Shown here: piece by piece, positions 43,015-50,140 of the stretch
Position numbering within the stretch: the first letter of the stretch is position 1
Layout: each line of letters starts with the position of its first letter
Assembly: GCF_029543085.1 (NCBI RefSeq)
Contig: NZ_CP119967.1
Span: forward strand, 5,110,501-5,174,500
Length of the DNA: 64,000 bases
Source of the DNA: Pseudomonas sp. A34-9
GTDB taxonomy: Bacteria; Pseudomonadota; Gammaproteobacteria; Pseudomonadales; Pseudomonadaceae
Direction: 5' to 3'
Translations under genes and position numbers: made by a program
Notes under the pieces: model-generated
The model's database searches: none
What the model was told of the DNA's origin: nothing
Seen by the model: the letters and a program-made list of their open reading frames with translations, nothing else

Positions 43015-43112
43015 CTGGCTGCTCATCCAATGAAACAGGCGCACAGGGTGAAAAATATGCGCCAGCGCTTTATAGTGGCCGACCTCCGTTTCATCAAGTA
43101 GCGAAGCCCCAC

Positions 43113-45164
43113 ATGTCCGAACCACGCAAGATCCTCGTCACCAGCGCCCTGCCCTACGCCAACGGTTCGATTCACCTTGGCCATATGCTGGAATATATCC
43201 AGACCGATATGTGGGTGCGCTTCCAGAAGCATCGCGGCAATCAATGCATTTACGTCTGCGCCGACGACGCCCACGGTTCGGCGATCATGCTGCGCGCGGA
43301 AAAGGAAGGCATCACCCCGGAACAACTGATCGCCAACGTGCAGGCTGAACACAGCGCCGACTTTGCCGAGTTTCTGGTTGATTTCGACAATTTCCACTCC
43401 ACTCACGCCGAAGAAAACCGTGAGTTGTCGAGCCAGATCTACATCAAGCTGCGTGACGCCGGGCACATCGCCCAGCGCTCGATCACCCAGTACTTCGACC
43501 CGGAAAAGAAAATGTTCCTGGCCGACCGCTTCATCAAGGGCACCTGCCCGAAATGCGGCACCGAAGACCAGTACGGCGACAACTGCGAAAAATGCGGCGC
43601 GACCTATGCGCCAACTGATTTGAAGGATCCGAAGTCGGCCATCTCCGGCGCCACCCCGGTGCTCAAGGATTCCCAGCACTTCTTCTTCAAGCTGCCAGAC
43701 TTCCAGCAAATGCTGCAGACCTGGACCCGCAGCGGCACCCTGCAGGACGCCGTCGCCAACAAGATCGCCGAATGGCTGGACGCCGGCCTGCAACAGTGGG
43801 ACATCTCCCGCGATGCACCGTACTTCGGCTTCGAGATCCCGGGCGAGCCGGGCAAGTATTTCTACGTGTGGCTGGATGCGCCGATCGGCTACATGGCCAG
43901 CTTCAAAAACCTTTGCGACCGTACGCCGGAGCTGGACTTCGATGCGTTCTGGGGCAAGGACTCCACCGCCGAGCTGTACCACTTCATCGGCAAGGACATC
44001 GTCAACTTCCACGCGCTGTTCTGGCCAGCGATGCTCGAAGGCGCGGGCTACCGCAAGCCGACCGGGATCAACGTGCACGGCTACCTGACCGTCAACGGCC
44101 AGAAAATGTCCAAGTCCCGTGGCACCTTCATCAAGGCCCGCACCTACCTCGATCACCTGTCGCCGGAATACCTGCGCTACTACTACGCGGCCAAACTGGG
44201 CCGTGGCGTCGATGACCTTGACCTGAACCTTGAAGATTTCGTGCAGAAGGTCAACTCCGACCTGGTCGGCAAAGTGGTCAACATCGCCAGCCGTTGCGCA
44301 GGTTTCATCCAGAAAGGTAACGGCGGCCTGCTGGTCGACACCAATGCTGCGCCTGAGCTGACCGAGGCTTTCCTCGCTGCCGCGCCAGGCATTGCTGACG
44401 CCTACGAAGCCCGCGACTTTGCTCGGGCCATGCGTGAAACCATGGCCCTGGCCGACCGTGCCAACGCCTGGATCGCCGACAAGGCGCCGTGGTCGTTGAA
44501 CAAACAGGAAGGCAAGCAGGATGAAGTCCAGGCGATCTGCGCCACCGCTATCAACCTGTTCCGCCAATTGGTGATCTTCCTCAAACCGGTGCTGCCGCTG
44601 CTGGCCGCCGATGCCGAGGCGTTCCTCAACGTCGCCCCGCTGACCTGGAACGACCACACCACCCTGCTGGCCAACCATCAGTTGAACGAATTCAAGCCGC
44701 TGATGACCCGCATCGACCCGGTAAAAGTGCAAGCCATGAGCGACGCCTCGAAAGAAGACCTGACCGCCAGCCAGACCGACACCGGTGCCGCCGCCCCGGC
44801 CGGCAATGGCGAACTGGCCAAGGATCCGCTGTCGCCGGAAATCGACTTCGATGCTTTTGCTGCCATCGACCTGCGCGTCGCGCTGATCGTCAAAGCCGAA
44901 CACGTGGAAGGTGCCGACAAACTGCTGCGCCTGACGCTGGACATCGGTGACGAGCAACGTAACGTGTTCTCCGGGATCAAGAGCGCTTACCCGGACCCGT
45001 CCAAACTCGATGGTCGCCTGACCATGATGATTGCCAACCTCAAGCCGCGGAAAATGAAGTTCGGTATTTCCGAAGGCATGGTGATGGCGGCCGGCCCTGG
45101 CGGTGAAGAGATTTACCTGCTGAGCCCGGACAGCGGCGCCAAGCCAGGTCAACGCATCAAGTAA
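43113..45164 (+). CDS. metG: Methionyl-tRNA synthetase
   Basis: The 683-residue enzyme charges tRNA-Met. Class I signatures HLGH (21-24) and KMSKS (around residue 332) are present. The zinc knuckle is formed by Cys145, Cys148, Cys158 and Cys161. The C-terminal 110 residues form the tRNA-binding/dimerisation domain ([21 protein letters not shown]). The N-terminus [17 protein letters not shown] is typical. A hairpin follows the gene. Confidence 0.98.
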
Positions 45165-45181
45165 CACTCGGCGGCAAATCG

Positions 45182-45218
45182 ATCCCACCGGCGTGCCACG
45201 CATGCCTGTGGGATTTTT
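45182..45218 (+). terminator. Hairpin terminator after metG
   Basis: Outer stem atcccac/gtgggat with an inner short pairing, followed by five T residues, 17 bases past the metG stop. Confidence 0.7.
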
Positions 45219-45278
45219 CATATCTGGCCGGATAATGCCTAACCTTAAGAAACACCCGCCCGTTTCGCTGGCAGAACC

Positions 45279-45848
45279 ATGACCGAACTTGTGCTTACGC
45301 TCATCAGTGCTGCGCTGCTCAACAACTTCGTGTTGCACTGGCCGCTGGGCGTCGATCCGCTGTTGGCGGGCCGTCGCCGACAGGTGCAGGCGTTGGGGCT
45401 GGCGACGTTGTGTCTGATGTTGATCACAGGCGTAGTGGGTTACGCGATCTGGCATTGGCTGCTGGTGCCGCTGCGACTTGAATTCCTGCGCCTGTTCGTG
45501 TTTCTGCCGCTGAGCGTATTGCTGATCACGCCGCTGTTAAAGCGGCTGGCGCGCTGGCTGCCGAAGCTGCCGTTTGACGGGTTATGGCCGCTGTTGCTGG
45601 GCAATGCCGGTGTACTGGGGCTGGCGCTGATCAACGCGCAAAACGATCAAGGCCTGCTCCACGCGACGGCGCTCAGCCTCGGTGCCGGGCTGGGTTTCTG
45701 GCTGGTGCTGAGCCTGTTCAGCGACTTGCGTGAACGCACCGCCGACAACGACATTCCCCTGCCCTTTCGCGGCCTGCCGATCGACCTGATCGGCGCCGGA
45801 CTGATCGCAGTGATTTTTCTCGGATTCAGTGGACTGATCAAAACATGA
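45279..45848 (+). CDS. rsxA: RsxA/RnfA-like membrane subunit lacking the conserved cysteines
   Basis: The 189-residue protein has six predicted membrane helices. It aligns with E. coli RsxA from [10 protein letters not shown] to [17 protein letters not shown] and FLGFSGLI. In the family two cysteines (in LGLCPF and TTNCAVLG) sit at the membrane [2Fe-2S] site; here the segments read LGVDPL (Asp26) and LGNAGVLG (Ala110). The protein therefore probably cannot help bind that cluster. Its stop overlaps the ATG of rsxB (ATGA). It is the first gene of rsxABDGE-nth. Confidence 0.88.
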
Positions 45849-47053
45849 GTCTGATTCAACGCATCGATGCCCTTCTGCCGCAGACACAATGCGGCAAATG
45901 CGGCCACCCCGGATGCAAGCCATACGCCCAAGGTATCGCCGAGGGCGAGCCAATCAACAAGTGCCCGCCGGGCGGTGACGAAACCATCGCCGCGCTGGCT
46001 GAACTGTTGAAAGTACCGGTGCTGGAACTGGACATCAGTCGCGGTTCGGCGCCGCCGCAAGTGGCGTTCATTCGTGAAGCCGAATGCATTGGCTGCACCA
46101 AGTGCATTCAGGCCTGCCCGATCGACGCGATTGTCGGCGCGGCGAAACTGATGCACACGGTGATCATTGACGAATGCACCGGTTGCGATCTGTGTGTCGC
46201 ACCATGCCCGGTGGATTGCATCGAAATGCACCCGTTACCGCCGAGCACATTGCCGGTTGTCGGCGGCCTCGCCTTCAGCCGCGAAGAGCAACGCGCGCGT
46301 GCGGCCAAGCGCGATCACGCGCGTCAACGCTTCGAGCGCCGCAACGAGCGCTTGCACCGCGAAGAGCAACAGAAACAGGCTGAGCGTGAAGCGCGGGCGA
46401 AACGGGCGGTGCAACCTGAAGCGGCCGCAACCGATCCGGTACAGGCAGCCCTGGAACGGGTGCGGGCGCAGAAAGCGGCGACTGCTGATGCGGCGCTGAA
46501 GAAAGCCAAGATCGATGTGGCGATGAGCCGTGCGCAATTGCACAAATCGTTGAAAGCCTTCGGCCATCCACCGACGTTTGAGCAGCAGACGCAACTGATC
46601 GTGTTGCAGCAGCAGTTCGAAGCAGCCGAACAAGCCTTGGCGAAACTGGAAAGCAGCCCGGCGTCTGCGCCCATCGTGCCTGCCCCCGCCAAAGACGCCG
46701 ATCTGAAACGGGCAAAGATCCAGTTGGCCATGCGTCGCGCTGAACTGAAAAAAGCACAAACCGCCGAAGCGGCGCCCGAGCAGATCACCGCGCTGGAACA
46801 GGCATTGCGCGACGCCGAACAGGCCCTGCACGCCGCCGAAGCCACAAGCGATCAGCCAGTGCCTGACTTGGTGCGCGTCGAAAAACGTCCGATCGACAGC
46901 CAGCTTCGTCAGTTGAAAACCGAATTGGCCTACGCCCGTGCGGACCTCAACAAACTCGAGCGACGCGCCGACACGCCCACCGAAGTCCTCGACAAGGCCC
47001 GCGTCCGCCTGCAAATCGCCGAGCGCCAGGTACACGATCATGTCGCCCCTTGA
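45845..47053 (+). CDS. rsxB: RsxB-like ferredoxin subunit, anchorless and with an RnfC-like repeat tail
   Basis: The 402-residue protein is about twice the normal RnfB length. It begins at once with the cluster domain [12 protein letters not shown]...C (Cys16, 19, 24, 40); the N-terminal membrane helix of ordinary RnfB is absent. Two [4Fe-4S] ferredoxin motifs follow (Cys81/84/87/91 and 111/114/117/121). From about residue 145 there is a charged helical tail with three related repeats starting near 218, 287 and 354 ([36 protein letters not shown]). This resembles the Ala/Lys-rich C-terminus of RnfC. No rsxC exists; rsxD starts inside the last codons. The start is fixed by the ATGA overlap with rsxA. 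Confidence 0.88.
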
Positions 47054-48023
47054 AACACCGGACAATCGCCTGCAACAGGCGATGAAGCTGGTGCTGCTGG
47101 CCGCCTTGCCGGGGTTGCTGGTGCTGTTCTGGTGGTACGGCTGGGGCGTGTTGATCAATCTGCTGCTGGCGATCTTCGCCGCGCTGATGGTCGAGGCCGG
47201 CGTCGCATGTCTGCGTCAACAGCCAATCCAGTCAGCGTTGAGCGACGGCAGTGCGTTGGTCAGCGCAACATTGTTGGCTGCCGCCCTGCCACCTTATTGC
47301 CCCTGGTGGCTGACGGTGATGGCGATTGCTTCGGGACTGCTGTTGGGCAAGCACGTTTACGGCGGCGTCGGTAGAAATCCGTTCAATCCGGCGATGCTCG
47401 GGTTTGCCTTGATCATGGTGATGTTCCCGCAACCGATGACCCAATGGCCAGCCCATGGCCTGGACTTGACCGCCGCGTTTCAGCAAGTGTTCGGCGCCGC
47501 GCAGTCACCTGACGCCTGGGCACAAGCCACCGTGCTGGACAGCCTGCGCATCAACAAAAGCCTGACCATGGACGAACTGTTCGCCAACAATCCGGCCTTC
47601 GGACGCTTTGGCGGACACGGTGTGGAATGGGTGAATCTGGCGTTTCTCGCCGGCGGGTTGTTTTTGCTGCAGCGCCGGGTCTTCGGTTGGCACGCACCGG
47701 CAGGCATGCTCGGCAGCCTGTTCGTTGTCAGTCTGCTGTTCTGGAATGGCTCCGGGTCGGACTCTCACGGTTCGCCGCTGTTCCACCTGCTCAGTGGCGC
47801 GACCATGCTGGGCGCGTTTTTCATCATCACTGAACCGGTCTCCGGCGCTAAAGCCAGGCTCGCCCGCCTGCTGTTCGGTGTCGGCGCCGGACTGCTGACT
47901 TATGCGATTCGCGCCTGGGGCGGTTACCCGGATGGCGTGGCGTTTGCGGTGCTGCTGATGAACCTTTGCGTGCCGGTGCTGGAGCGGTTTGCCGCGCGTC
48001 GTCAGCCACAGGTGAGTTCATGA
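47040..48023 (+). CDS. rsxD: RsxD/RnfD-like membrane flavoprotein subunit
   Basis: The 327-residue protein has about nine membrane helices, conserved [20 protein letters not shown] near residue 115 and [19 protein letters not shown] near the C-terminus. RnfD normally carries FMN covalently on the Thr of an SGAT motif. The corresponding site here appears as DAWAQAT (Asp158-Thr164): the Thr remains but Ser-Gly is changed to Ala-Gln. ATG 47040 lies within the end of rsxB, 14 bp overlapping. Its stop overlaps rsxG by ATGA. Confidence 0.87.
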
Positions 48024-48625
48024 ACCGCACGGCCAGCGCACTGACGTTATTGTTGTTGGCGGGGGCAGGCATTGGCGCGACATACCTGCTGCAACGCAGC
48101 AGTGCACCGCAGATCGCTGCTGAGCAGCGCTTGGCCGACAGTCGCAAACTGCTCGATGTGCTTGCCGCTGACAGCTACGACAACCAACCGCTGGACCAGC
48201 CGATTGCACTGACCGATACGGGTCTGAGCCATAGCACGCTCGCGGCGGGTTACCGTGCAACCAGCAATGGTCAAACCGTTGCAGTGTTGCTGCGTAACCA
48301 GACCGAGGGCTACGCCGGTGCCATTGAATTGCTGATTGCTATCGATGCCAACGGCAAGTTGCTCGGCGTAAAAACCCTCAAGCAAAACGAAACCCCGGCA
48401 CTTGGCGGCCTCATTGGCGACTGGCCGAACCGCTGGCTTCAGGTGTTTACCGGCAAATCACGCGGTGAACCGAATGACGCTGGCTGGGCATTGAAAAAAG
48501 ATCAGGGACAATTCGATCAAATGGCCGGGGCGACCATTACTTCGCGCGCAGCCATCAACGCGATCCGGGATGCGTTGCGTTACTTTGACGAACATCGAAC
48601 GGCGTTATTGGGGAGCGGAGCATGA
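48020..48625 (+). CDS. rsxG: RsxG/RnfG-like periplasmic flavin subunit
   Basis: The 201-residue protein has one N-terminal membrane anchor (residues 6-24) and a periplasmic FMN-binding domain. The conserved NETPALGG (123-130) and flavin-attachment region MAGATITSRAA (Thr172) are present, with Ala instead of Ser at the first motif position. ApbE-type flavin transferase normally modifies this Thr. It overlaps rsxD and rsxE by ATGA on both sides, so all rsx genes are translationally coupled. Confidence 0.88.
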   Translation: MNRTASALTLLLLAGAGIGATYLLQRSSAPQIAAEQRLADSRKLLDVLAADSYDNQPLDQPIALTDTGLSHSTLAAGYRATSNGQTVAVLLRNQTEGYAGAIELLIAIDANGKLLGVKTLKQNETPALGGLIGDWPNRWLQVFTGKSRGEPNDAGWALKKDQGQFDQMAGATITSRAAINAIRDALRYFDEHRTALLGSGA

Positions 48626-49191
48626 ACCTGTCCAACTCACTGATGCTGGTGCTATTGCTCGGCACCACCGTTTCGCTGGCCGGCGCGTTGGGGACGATGG
48701 TGATGTTTGTCCTCGTGGTGGGCATTTATGCTTTGGCCATGTCACCGCTGCGCCCGCGCATGACAGATGGCAGTGCCTTGCTGGCCGGAGTGCTGCTTGC
48801 TGCAACGTTAACCAGTTGCGCAGATCTTCTGGCGCAACGCTGGTTTCTGGCGTGGCACCAGTCGTTCAGTCTCTATGGCGGATTGATCGCCTTGCAGTGC
48901 GTGGTGCTGGAGCACAACGGTTTCTTCAGCCGACCGCTGGCCCAGCGCTTCAAACTTTGCGCATTGTTTGGCAGTTTGATGCTGGTGCTAGCGGCGCTGC
49001 GTGAACTCATCGGTCAGGGCAGCCTTGGACGGGGGTTGCTCGAGCATGGCTCCGCTCTTGTTGTATTTAGCGAAGGGCTGCACCTGATCACTTTGATCCC
49101 CGGTGCTTTTATTTTGTTGGCGCTGCTGCTGGCGGCGCGTCAGGCGATGGTTCGCCCGAACTCGATATCCAAGGAAACGCATCACCCATGA
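48622..49191 (+). CDS. rsxE: RsxE/RnfE-like membrane subunit with one conserved cysteine replaced
   Basis: The 189-residue protein has six predicted helices and is shorter than the E. coli 231-residue RsxE. The C-terminal LRELIGQGSL and LIPGAFILLALLLA regions identify the family. The first family cysteine (LLGLCPLL) is replaced: LLGTTVSL, with Thr16. The second (TNCIVVGRAE) is kept as LQCVVLEHNG (Cys93). Together with RsxA only one of the four expected cluster ligands remains. It overlaps nth by ATGA. Confidence 0.85.
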   Translation: MNLSNSLMLVLLLGTTVSLAGALGTMVMFVLVVGIYALAMSPLRPRMTDGSALLAGVLLAATLTSCADLLAQRWFLAWHQSFSLYGGLIALQCVVLEHNGFFSRPLAQRFKLCALFGSLMLVLAALRELIGQGSLGRGLLEHGSALVVFSEGLHLITLIPGAFILLALLLAARQAMVRPNSISKETHHP

Positions 49192-49826
49192 ATGCAGCAA
49201 AACGTCTGGAGATTTTCCGCCGCCTGCACGAAGACAATCCGGAGCCAAAGACCGAACTGGCCTACTCCTCGCCGTTCGAGCTGTTGATCGCCGTGATTCT
49301 TTCGGCGCAGTCGACTGACGTCGGCGTCAACAAGGCCACGGCAAAGCTGTTTCCAGTGGCCAATACGCCGGCGGCGATCCACGCTTTGGGGGTCGAAGGT
49401 CTATCGGAATACATCAAGACGATCGGTCTCTACAACAGCAAGGCCAGGAACGTCATCGAAACCTGCCGCCTGCTGGTCGAACGCCATGGCAGTGTGGTTC
49501 CGCAGACCCGTGAAGAGCTCGAAGCCTTGCCGGGAGTGGGCCGCAAGACCGCCAACGTCGTACTCAACACGGCTTTCCGCCAACTGACCATGGCCGTCGA
49601 CACCCACATCTTTCGCGTCAGCAACCGCACCGGCATTGCACCGGGCAAAAATGTGGTCGAAGTGGAAAACAAGCTGATGAAGTTTGTTCCCAAGGAATTC
49701 CTGCTCGACTCTCATCACTGGCTGATTCTTCACGGTCGCTACGTGTGTCTGGCCCGCAAGCCACGCTGTGGGAGTTGCCGGATCGAAGACTTGTGCGAGT
49801 ACAAAGACAAAACGTCTGACGATTGA
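49188..49826 (+). CDS. nth: Endonuclease III
   Basis: The 212-residue base-excision repair glycosylase/AP-lyase removes oxidised pyrimidines. The helix-hairpin-helix LPGVGRKTANVV contains catalytic Lys120; Asp138 is in VDTH. The [4Fe-4S] cluster ligands Cys187, Cys194, Cys197 and Cys203 are all in canonical spacing. It is the last gene of the rsx operon, sharing the ATGA overlap, as in many gammaproteobacteria. Confidence 0.97.
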   Translation: MNAAKRLEIFRRLHEDNPEPKTELAYSSPFELLIAVILSAQSTDVGVNKATAKLFPVANTPAAIHALGVEGLSEYIKTIGLYNSKARNVIETCRLLVERHGSVVPQTREELEALPGVGRKTANVVLNTAFRQLTMAVDTHIFRVSNRTGIAPGKNVVEVENKLMKFVPKEFLLDSHHWLILHGRYVCLARKPRCGSCRIEDLCEYKDKTSDD

Positions 49827-50109: not shown

Positions 50110-50115
50110 TACCTG

Positions 50116-50140
50116 AAAGCCTCCCGGACCGGAGGCTTTT
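50116..50140 (+). terminator. Terminator after the small acidic gene
   Basis: Stem aaagcctcc/ggaggcttt with a short loop and T-run, 6 bases after the stop. Confidence 0.88.

Follow-up and report, generated by a model that had tools for sequence, protein, structure and literature searches.

An rsxABDGE operon of Pseudomonas in which RsxB carries a remnant of RnfC and most [2Fe-2S] ligands of RsxA and RsxE are missing

What does an Rnf complex do without RnfC? The question is raised by the rsx operon of Pseudomonas sp. A34-9, which lies in the 64,000 nucleotides analyzed here (the window; NZ_CP119967.1, positions 5,110,501 to 5,174,500). A preliminary description had listed rsxA, rsxB, rsxD, rsxG, and rsxE as consecutive genes with overlapping ends and no rsxC between them, and this layout was confirmed. 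In window coordinates, which refer to the + strand unless stated otherwise, the genes are rsxA (45279..45848; 189 amino acids [aa]), rsxB (45845..47053; 402 aa), rsxD (47040..48023; 327 aa), rsxG (48020..48625; 201 aa), and rsxE (48622..49191; 189 aa), lying on one strand between metG and nth with overlaps of 4 or 14 bases. The evidence leads us, with moderate confidence, to an altered and simpler role in electron transfer, carried by two separated modules, a soluble polyferredoxin and a flavin conduit without the [2Fe-2S] cluster of RnfA and RnfE.

The five open reading frames (ORFs) were assigned to RnfA, RnfB, RnfD, RnfG, and RnfE with NCBIfam and Pfam models. RsxB, RsxD (359.3 bits), and RsxG score above the cut-offs of the general RnfB, RnfD, and RnfG models. 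The matches of RsxA (118.8 bits against a curated NCBIfam cut-off of 229.3) and RsxE (42.1 bits against 213.4) are weak, and the predicted structure model of RsxA is also weak (mean pLDDT, 69; pTM, 0.65).

The fate of RnfC can be read from RsxB, which is annotated as "electron transport complex subunit RsxB." Its first 128 residues (45845..46228) derive from RnfB: residues 3 to 128 align with residues 36 to 161 of a canonical RnfB (locus L088) at 72% identity. The RsxB start thus corresponds to residue 35-36 of canonical RnfB, and the N-terminal membrane helix is missing. The RnfB cysteines for the [4Fe-4S] clusters are present; this part has 12 cysteines, which suit three [4Fe-4S] clusters and are invariant in 24 sequences. 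The C-terminal tail (aa 148 to 402; 46286..47050) derives from RnfC. Residues 287 to 399 match RnfC 671 to 783 with 52% identity over 113 residues (E = 3e-24 with SEG masking and composition correction), and the tail scores 143 to 188 bits against 14 canonical RnfC proteins, while 300 shuffles of the tail reach at most 60.8 bits (neither set of scores corrected). The shuffles and the corrected match rule out a low-complexity artefact. The NCBIfam RsxC model matches RsxB at residues 77 to 304 (44.2 bits), and RsxB used as a query in canonical genomes finds two places, RnfB and the tail of RnfC.

Because RsxB is a helix-less RnfB fused to the C-terminal tail of RnfC, the core of RnfC must have been deleted. 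On these alignments, an ancestral rnfABCDGE operon lost the NADH/flavin mononucleotide (FMN) core of RnfC and its remaining tail was fused to RnfB; as far as the alignment shows, the RnfC ferredoxin domain was removed as well. The tight gene junctions had earlier been taken to mean that the gene order is genuine rather than a deletion, a view that does not hold, as the RnfC tail on RsxB is the scar of a deletion. In Azotobacter vinelandii, a long C-terminal helix of RnfC is described as touching RnfB and RnfH (PMC12174285). Two genomes from a different genus within the class (G241 and G362; loci L242 and L243) carry a helix-bearing RnfB fused to the ferredoxin domain and tail of RnfC (40% and 48% identity). 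There, too, the NADH core of RnfC is gone and the locus order is metG-A-B-D-G-E-nth without C, with the cluster cysteines of RnfA and RnfE intact. This separate case supports the RnfB-RnfC fusion as a kind of change, and it may represent an earlier stage of it.

The second loss concerns the [2Fe-2S] cluster held between RnfA and RnfE. In Acetobacterium woodii its ligands are reported as RnfA C25 and C113 and RnfE C25 and C108, and mutants in the cluster cysteines as showing neither growth on H2 + CO2 nor ferredoxin-dependent NAD reduction (PMC11889175). When aligned with the solved chains, the window proteins lack three of the four cysteines. RsxA has Asp26 (codon 45354..45356) in place of Cys25, as aligned to chain 9eri_A, and Ala110 (45606..45608) in place of Cys113; RsxE has a shortened N terminus without the first cluster cysteine and retains the second. 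The same holds among relatives: the positions RnfA C26, RnfA C114, and RnfE C28 are each kept in 0 of 45 rows from operons without rnfC (C-less), of which 43 retain RnfE C111, whereas all four cysteines are kept in each of the 9 canonical rows. Since RnfC and three of the four ligands are lost, normal Rnf electron flow is not expected, and the canonical U-shaped path would not run. The preliminary suggestion that a soluble donor passes electrons to RsxB is therefore incomplete: with the RsxA and RsxE ligands gone, such a donor cannot feed the normal path, and RsxB and RsxADGE prove to be separable.

The absence of RnfC, the subunit with the NADH and FMN sites and two [4Fe-4S] clusters, is not confined to the operon. 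The genome of strain A34-9 is a single contig of 6,541,947 bases with a completeness figure of 100%, and a search of the whole contig with TIGR01945 found no RnfC above the cut-off of 245.95 bits, in agreement with the earlier claim. Two weak matches (57.3 and 25.8 bits), 5 kb apart, probably represent subunits of complex I. An assembly error at 47040-47053, which would have undone that claim, is very unlikely and was rejected as an explanation, since the same C-less junction of B and D recurs in other genomes: 68 fetched loci have B and D without C, and the two genes overlap in 66 of them, a count based on the longest possible ORF starts, so that overlaps are overcounted.

Gene content was compared across the genus, as had been suggested, in an even sample of 149 genomes from a larger group. 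RnfD scores above the cut-off in 106 of the 149 and RnfC in 25, and canonical rnfABCDGE is found in 19. The C-less operon is widespread, with RnfD present in it in 88 genomes (87 above the cut-off, plus G034, in which RnfD is split by frame breaks), and 42 genomes lack RnfD, including two (G001 and G146) with only an NQR-like match. RsxB (E up to 1e-15) accompanies the C-less operon in 77 of 88 genomes and is present in 34 of the 42 without RnfD; 8 of the 149 have neither protein. No RnfC above the cut-off was found in 82 of the C-less genomes, and the other 6 (G021, G022, G056, G071, G092, and G102) have a second, RnfC-bearing operon elsewhere. Direct reading of the locus covered 45 C-less genomes out of 88 (the window plus 44 fetched loci); of the 19 canonical genomes, 9 were read with every gene in view. 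Among 80 named loci, 33 are C-less (including Pseudomonas fluorescens, P. viridiflava, P. chlororaphis, P. brassicacearum, P. gingeri, and P. capsici), 45 have an rnfC ORF (including Azotobacter, Stutzerimonas, P. nitroreducens, and P. peli), and 2 (L165 and L179) start at rnfD or close to it, so that the presence of rnfC cannot be called.

Two side observations came from these loci. Loci L092, L094, L096, L097, and L100 (genomes G059, G092, G056, G081, and G102) contain another, distinct operon, whose RnfC frame has 466 to 502 aa and whose RnfD shares about 35% identity with the reference; ApbE is nearby in G092, G056, and G102. In G034 (L095), frame breaks affect several genes, metG among them, and are likely read errors in the assembly.

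RsxB and the remaining genes come and go separately. Among the 130 noncanonical genomes, 77 have both B and D, 11 have D only, 34 have B only, and 8 have neither (P = 0.43 by Fisher's test, which ignores the relatedness of the genomes). Nine fetched loci have A-D-G-E without B. One of these nine, L068, has a 22-codon stub between rsxA and rsxD whose first nine residues are those of the RsxB start, a scar of rsxB loss. Conversely, 28 of 28 fetched B-only loci (34 genomes are of this kind) read metG-rsxB-nth. As the two parts occur independently, we infer that RsxB and RsxADGE are two separated modules.

In an RsxD tree of 61 rows, the 17 canonical copies lie on one side of a single branch with a support of 100/100, and in a quicker tree with an outgroup (70 rows), canonical and C-less copies form sister groups (supports, 84 and 86). 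Most simply, the C-less operon would have one origin. Four C-less copies (L065, L069, L077, and L078) occur in species whose MetG and Nth fall within the canonical clade; an RsxD tree that groups them with canonical copies is rejected (p-AU = 0.0009), and the simplest reading is that the operon was transferred between species, with long branches as a caveat. The loss of B needs three to four changes on the trees. A recent, local loss of RnfC was also considered and is rejected by the RsxD and MetG/Nth trees.

The flavin sites, on the other hand, are kept. RsxD Thr164 (codon 47529..47531) corresponds to the FMN-linked Thr156 of A. woodii RnfD as given in PMC11889175, by a local motif match where the HMMER alignment is gapped. 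All C-less rows (44 of 44) and all canonical rows (9 of 9) have this threonine. The SGAT and TGAT motifs of RnfD (canonical positions 259 and 275) were rejected as the flavinylation site, which is the Thr of WAQAT. RsxG, the periplasmic FMN subunit by its family matches, retains the FMN motif, with Thr172 (48533..48535; AGAT) as the predicted site; the threonine residue is thus present in both proteins. The riboflavin-binding Asn123 of A. woodii RnfD is kept in RsxD in 44 of 44 C-less rows, while the place of the riboflavin-binding Asp249 (PMC11889175), RsxD Glu265 in the window (47832..47834), holds Glu in 44 of 44 C-less rows and Asp in 9 of 9 canonical rows.

ApbE is found in all 107 genus genomes with RnfD (88 of 88 C-less, that of strain A34-9 included) versus 9 of the 42 without it; it tracks D, not B. 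Because RsxG is the sole FMN_bind match in its own genome, RsxG and RsxD are the likely reason why ApbE is retained. Selection was compared as the median pairwise ratio of nonsynonymous to synonymous substitution rates (dN/dS; Nei-Gojobori method, NG86) in 16 C-less sequences, the window included, and 12 canonical ones, with dS near saturation in some genes. The medians of C-less versus canonical sequences are 0.145 versus 0.027 for A and 0.249 versus 0.104 for E, and 0.117 versus 0.110 for D and 0.161 versus 0.189 for G. For RsxB they are 0.078 in C-less, 0.052 in canonical, and 0.124 in B-only sequences. The flavin subunits D and G are thus about as constrained as before, and the cluster-bearing pair A and E is relaxed. 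In eight A-D-G-E operons, in which B is also lost, every one of the four genes is under weaker constraint (A, 0.351; D, 0.215; G, 0.331; E, 0.432).

A further protein disappears together with the cluster ligands. RseC, also called MucC (PF04246), was found in 20 of the 149 genus genomes, namely, all 19 canonical ones and G122, and gave no match in the genome of strain A34-9 or in 87 of the 88 C-less genomes altogether. One paper describes RseC as a part of the SoxR reducer that has an Fe-S-binding domain (PMC11729352), and another describes it as a regulator in Clostridium ljungdahlii (PMC9124969). The two fusion genomes G241 and G362, which are C-less with intact cluster cysteines, were set beforehand as a discriminating case: a role of RseC at the cluster predicts its presence in them, and a role at RnfC its absence. 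RseC was found in both, at modest scores (E = 1.3e-18 and 1.6e-15).

The class was then surveyed in 274 genomes, with an RnfD cut of E < 1e-60 chosen to exclude NQR (168 pass; 171 are above the family cut-off) and an RseC threshold of E up to 0.001 (159 of 161 matches above the cut-off). RseC occurs in 153 of the 168 genomes with RnfD versus 8 of the 106 others. Of the 15 with RnfD and no RseC match, four loci were read, that of strain A34-9 and three whose coordinates were among the matches listed. In L252, A and E are each short of one ligand even though the locus has RnfC. L253 (G267), at metG, has lost both A ligands and has a B of 163 aa with the helix, D, and G; neither RnfC nor RnfE was found at this locus, and the genome has an RnfC match at another position. 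L254 (G281) has RnfA-B-C-D-G, with both cysteines kept in RnfA and no RnfE recognized at the locus. Besides strain A34-9, eight genomes with RnfD and no RnfC were chosen by eye (G241, G283, G301, G362, G363, G365, G369, and G381) and six were fetched; L244 to L247 are cut by the contig end and say nothing about C. In six loci from RseC genomes, the ligands are complete as far as read (A and E in L242, L243, and L255; E only in L244, L245, and L247).

The presence of RseC follows the cluster ligands of RnfA and RnfE more than it follows SoxR or RnfC, which points to a factor for the RnfA/E cluster. Two things speak against this link. G122 (L065), one of the four apparent recipients of the C-less operon, has RseC although its A and E ligands are lost, and Rnf assembly without RseC in Vibrio cholerae and A. 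woodii, as cited in PMC11729352, argues against an absolute need. Our fuller proposal is tentative, and we give it somewhat less than even weight: in the Pseudomonas operon, RsxADGE would form a cluster-less, outward, flavin-only conduit, and RsxB with its RnfC tail would be a free polyferredoxin, and the joint loss would mark RseC as the builder or inserter of the [2Fe-2S] cluster of RnfA and RnfE, as NqrM seems to be for NQR, rather than as a factor specific to SoxR or NADH.

How such a system might work can be sketched. The machine would have come apart into two modules, each able to exist without the other. One would be the soluble polyferredoxin, and the other, RsxADGE, would no longer be an ion-pumping NADH:ferredoxin reductase. 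Electrons would use the remaining leg only, from the riboflavin of RsxD on the cytoplasmic side over the FMN of RsxD to the FMN of RsxG in the periplasm, with RsxA and RsxE as a scaffold. Our guess is a one-way conduit, most likely directed outward to a periplasmic acceptor, of the kind proposed for NQR/RNF-like two-subunit systems (PMC8238504), with RsxB as the cytoplasmic donor in genomes that have it and another small donor in those that do not. RsxB may occupy the former place of RnfC at RsxD by means of the RnfC tail.

Several observations weigh against this two-module reading. Glu replaces Asp in every C-less RsxD row, which leaves riboflavin binding uncertain; the 11 genomes with D and without B weaken a direct route from RsxB to RsxD; and the independence of the modules rests on Fisher tests blind to shared ancestry. 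The MetG + Nth tree needs four changes for C, so that a single origin must invoke transfer, and long branches may pull the C-less sequences together. The loss of RnfD in 42 of 149 genomes and the faster evolution of A and E are also compatible with slow decay. A slowly decaying relic, in which function ended with the loss of RnfC and the genes left behind are disappearing, would account for these last observations, for the absence of B from 11 of the 88 C-less genomes, for the stub in L068, for the raised dN/dS of all four genes in A-D-G-E operons, and for the stop codons within the aligned stretch of some RsxB matches (e.g., G015). We nevertheless regard a relic as unlikely. Each gene has one open frame in every C-less locus read except L095 (where metG is split too), dN/dS stays below 0.5, the FMN sites are kept, ApbE accompanies all 88 C-less operons, and the operon has seemingly been transferred between species.

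Reduction of SoxR, as by RsxABCDGE of Escherichia coli but with another electron input, seems improbable. SoxR is above the cut-off in 106 of the 149 genomes and in 77 of the 88 C-less ones, that of strain A34-9 included, as this role would have it. It is also found, however, in 6 of the 8 genomes with neither RsxB nor RsxD and in 19 of the 34 B-only genomes but in just 4 of the 19 canonical ones, and RseC, a part of the E. coli reducer according to PMC11729352, is not found in strain A34-9 and 87 of the 88 C-less genomes. As SoxR occurs without RsxB and RsxD, its reduction is not an obligatory role. It is conceivable, though we doubt it strongly, that RsxB alone matters, as a soluble ferredoxin for the adjoining [4Fe-4S] protein Nth or another cytosolic client, with ADGE as baggage. 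The 34 genomes with RsxB and no RnfD would suit this, as would the low dN/dS of RsxB in C-less and B-only genomes and the position of rsxB, which adjoins nth in all 28 fetched B-only loci and overlaps it in 11 (longest ORF starts). Yet nth also follows canonical rnf, so the adjacency is inherited, and nth is retained in 9 of 9 fetched loci without B. That RnfC is supplied from elsewhere in the genome has next to no probability: the second, RnfC-bearing operons of 6 C-less genomes would allow it there, but none of the other 82 has an RnfC above the cut-off, the idea is refuted for the complete genome of strain A34-9 at the sensitivity of TIGR01945, and three of the four RsxA/RsxE ligands are missing regardless.

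The operon stands in a conserved neighborhood. Its left neighbor, metG (43113..45164), is outside the unit and is conserved in most fetched loci except where the locus or contig ends first; the right neighbor, nth (49188..49826), is also conserved and overlaps rsxE. Terminator-like hairpins, identified by consensus match only, lie between metG and rsxA (45196..45211) and about 290 bases 3′ of nth (50115..50140), the latter overlapped by an ORF on the opposite strand. An open frame of 810 codons antisense to metG (43023-45455, − strand) is probably a by-product of codon use.

A 2025 review holds that the cofactors of RnfD, RnfA, RnfE, and RnfG are strictly conserved between RNF and NQR (PMC12174285), against which 88 of the 149 sampled genomes have RnfD without RnfC at the locus, and none of the 45 C-less loci read has the full ligand set. 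A large survey scored Rnf as present if RnfB occurred in a flavinylation gene cluster (PMC8238504). Among the titles and abstracts listed in searches of open-licence PubMed Central papers, none describes an RnfC-less Rnf, rnfABDGE or rsxABDGE, an RnfB-RnfC fusion, or RseC as a maturation factor. If our reading is true, the C-less operon amounts to a natural experiment in taking Rnf apart. The operon allows the flavin half to be studied on its own, and what RseC does, a long-standing question, becomes directly testable. The preliminary description was right to caution against assuming a role in SoxR reduction or energy conversion, and neither must be inferred from an rsx annotation in Pseudomonas.

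The closest known system is canonical RnfABCDGE, e.g., the Azotobacter and Stutzerimonas copies that adjoin nth. It occupies the same locus and, C excepted, has the same gene order; its A, B, D, G, and E are homologous, and the FMN sites of D and G as well as ApbE are common to both. Unlike it, the window operon has no RnfC, an incomplete RnfA/E ligand set, a soluble RsxB with an RnfC tail, the Asp-to-Glu change in RsxD, and no RseC in its genome. The fusion operons of G241 and G362 share the C-less gene order and an RnfB joined to an RnfC remnant; they differ in keeping the RnfB helix, the RnfC ferredoxin domain, the A and E cysteines, and RseC. RsxB without its helix also resembles the RsxB/RnfB families NF005415 (PRK06991) and NF006446 (PRK08764), which have the RnfB ferredoxin part without a helix and which we take to be standalone proteins of Burkholderia and Xanthomonas. 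NF005415 matches RsxB at residues 2 to 270, reaching into the tail (254.3 bits, below the cut-off of 281). Na+-NQR has homologous membrane subunits, and its RnfC homologue NqrA is described as having lost its cofactors (PMC4014512), but it keeps the [2Fe-2S] cluster and has gained NqrF. Finally, the NQR/RNF-like two-subunit systems, reported mainly from Actinobacteria and the candidate phyla radiation (PMC8238504, PMC11334425), share the proposed one-way path through an NqrB/RnfD-type subunit and an FMN_bind subunit. As described there, they consist of two subunits only, with RnfD fused to an NqrF-type NAD domain, whereas the window RsxD carries no fused NAD-binding PF00175 domain, and RsxA and RsxE persist beside it.

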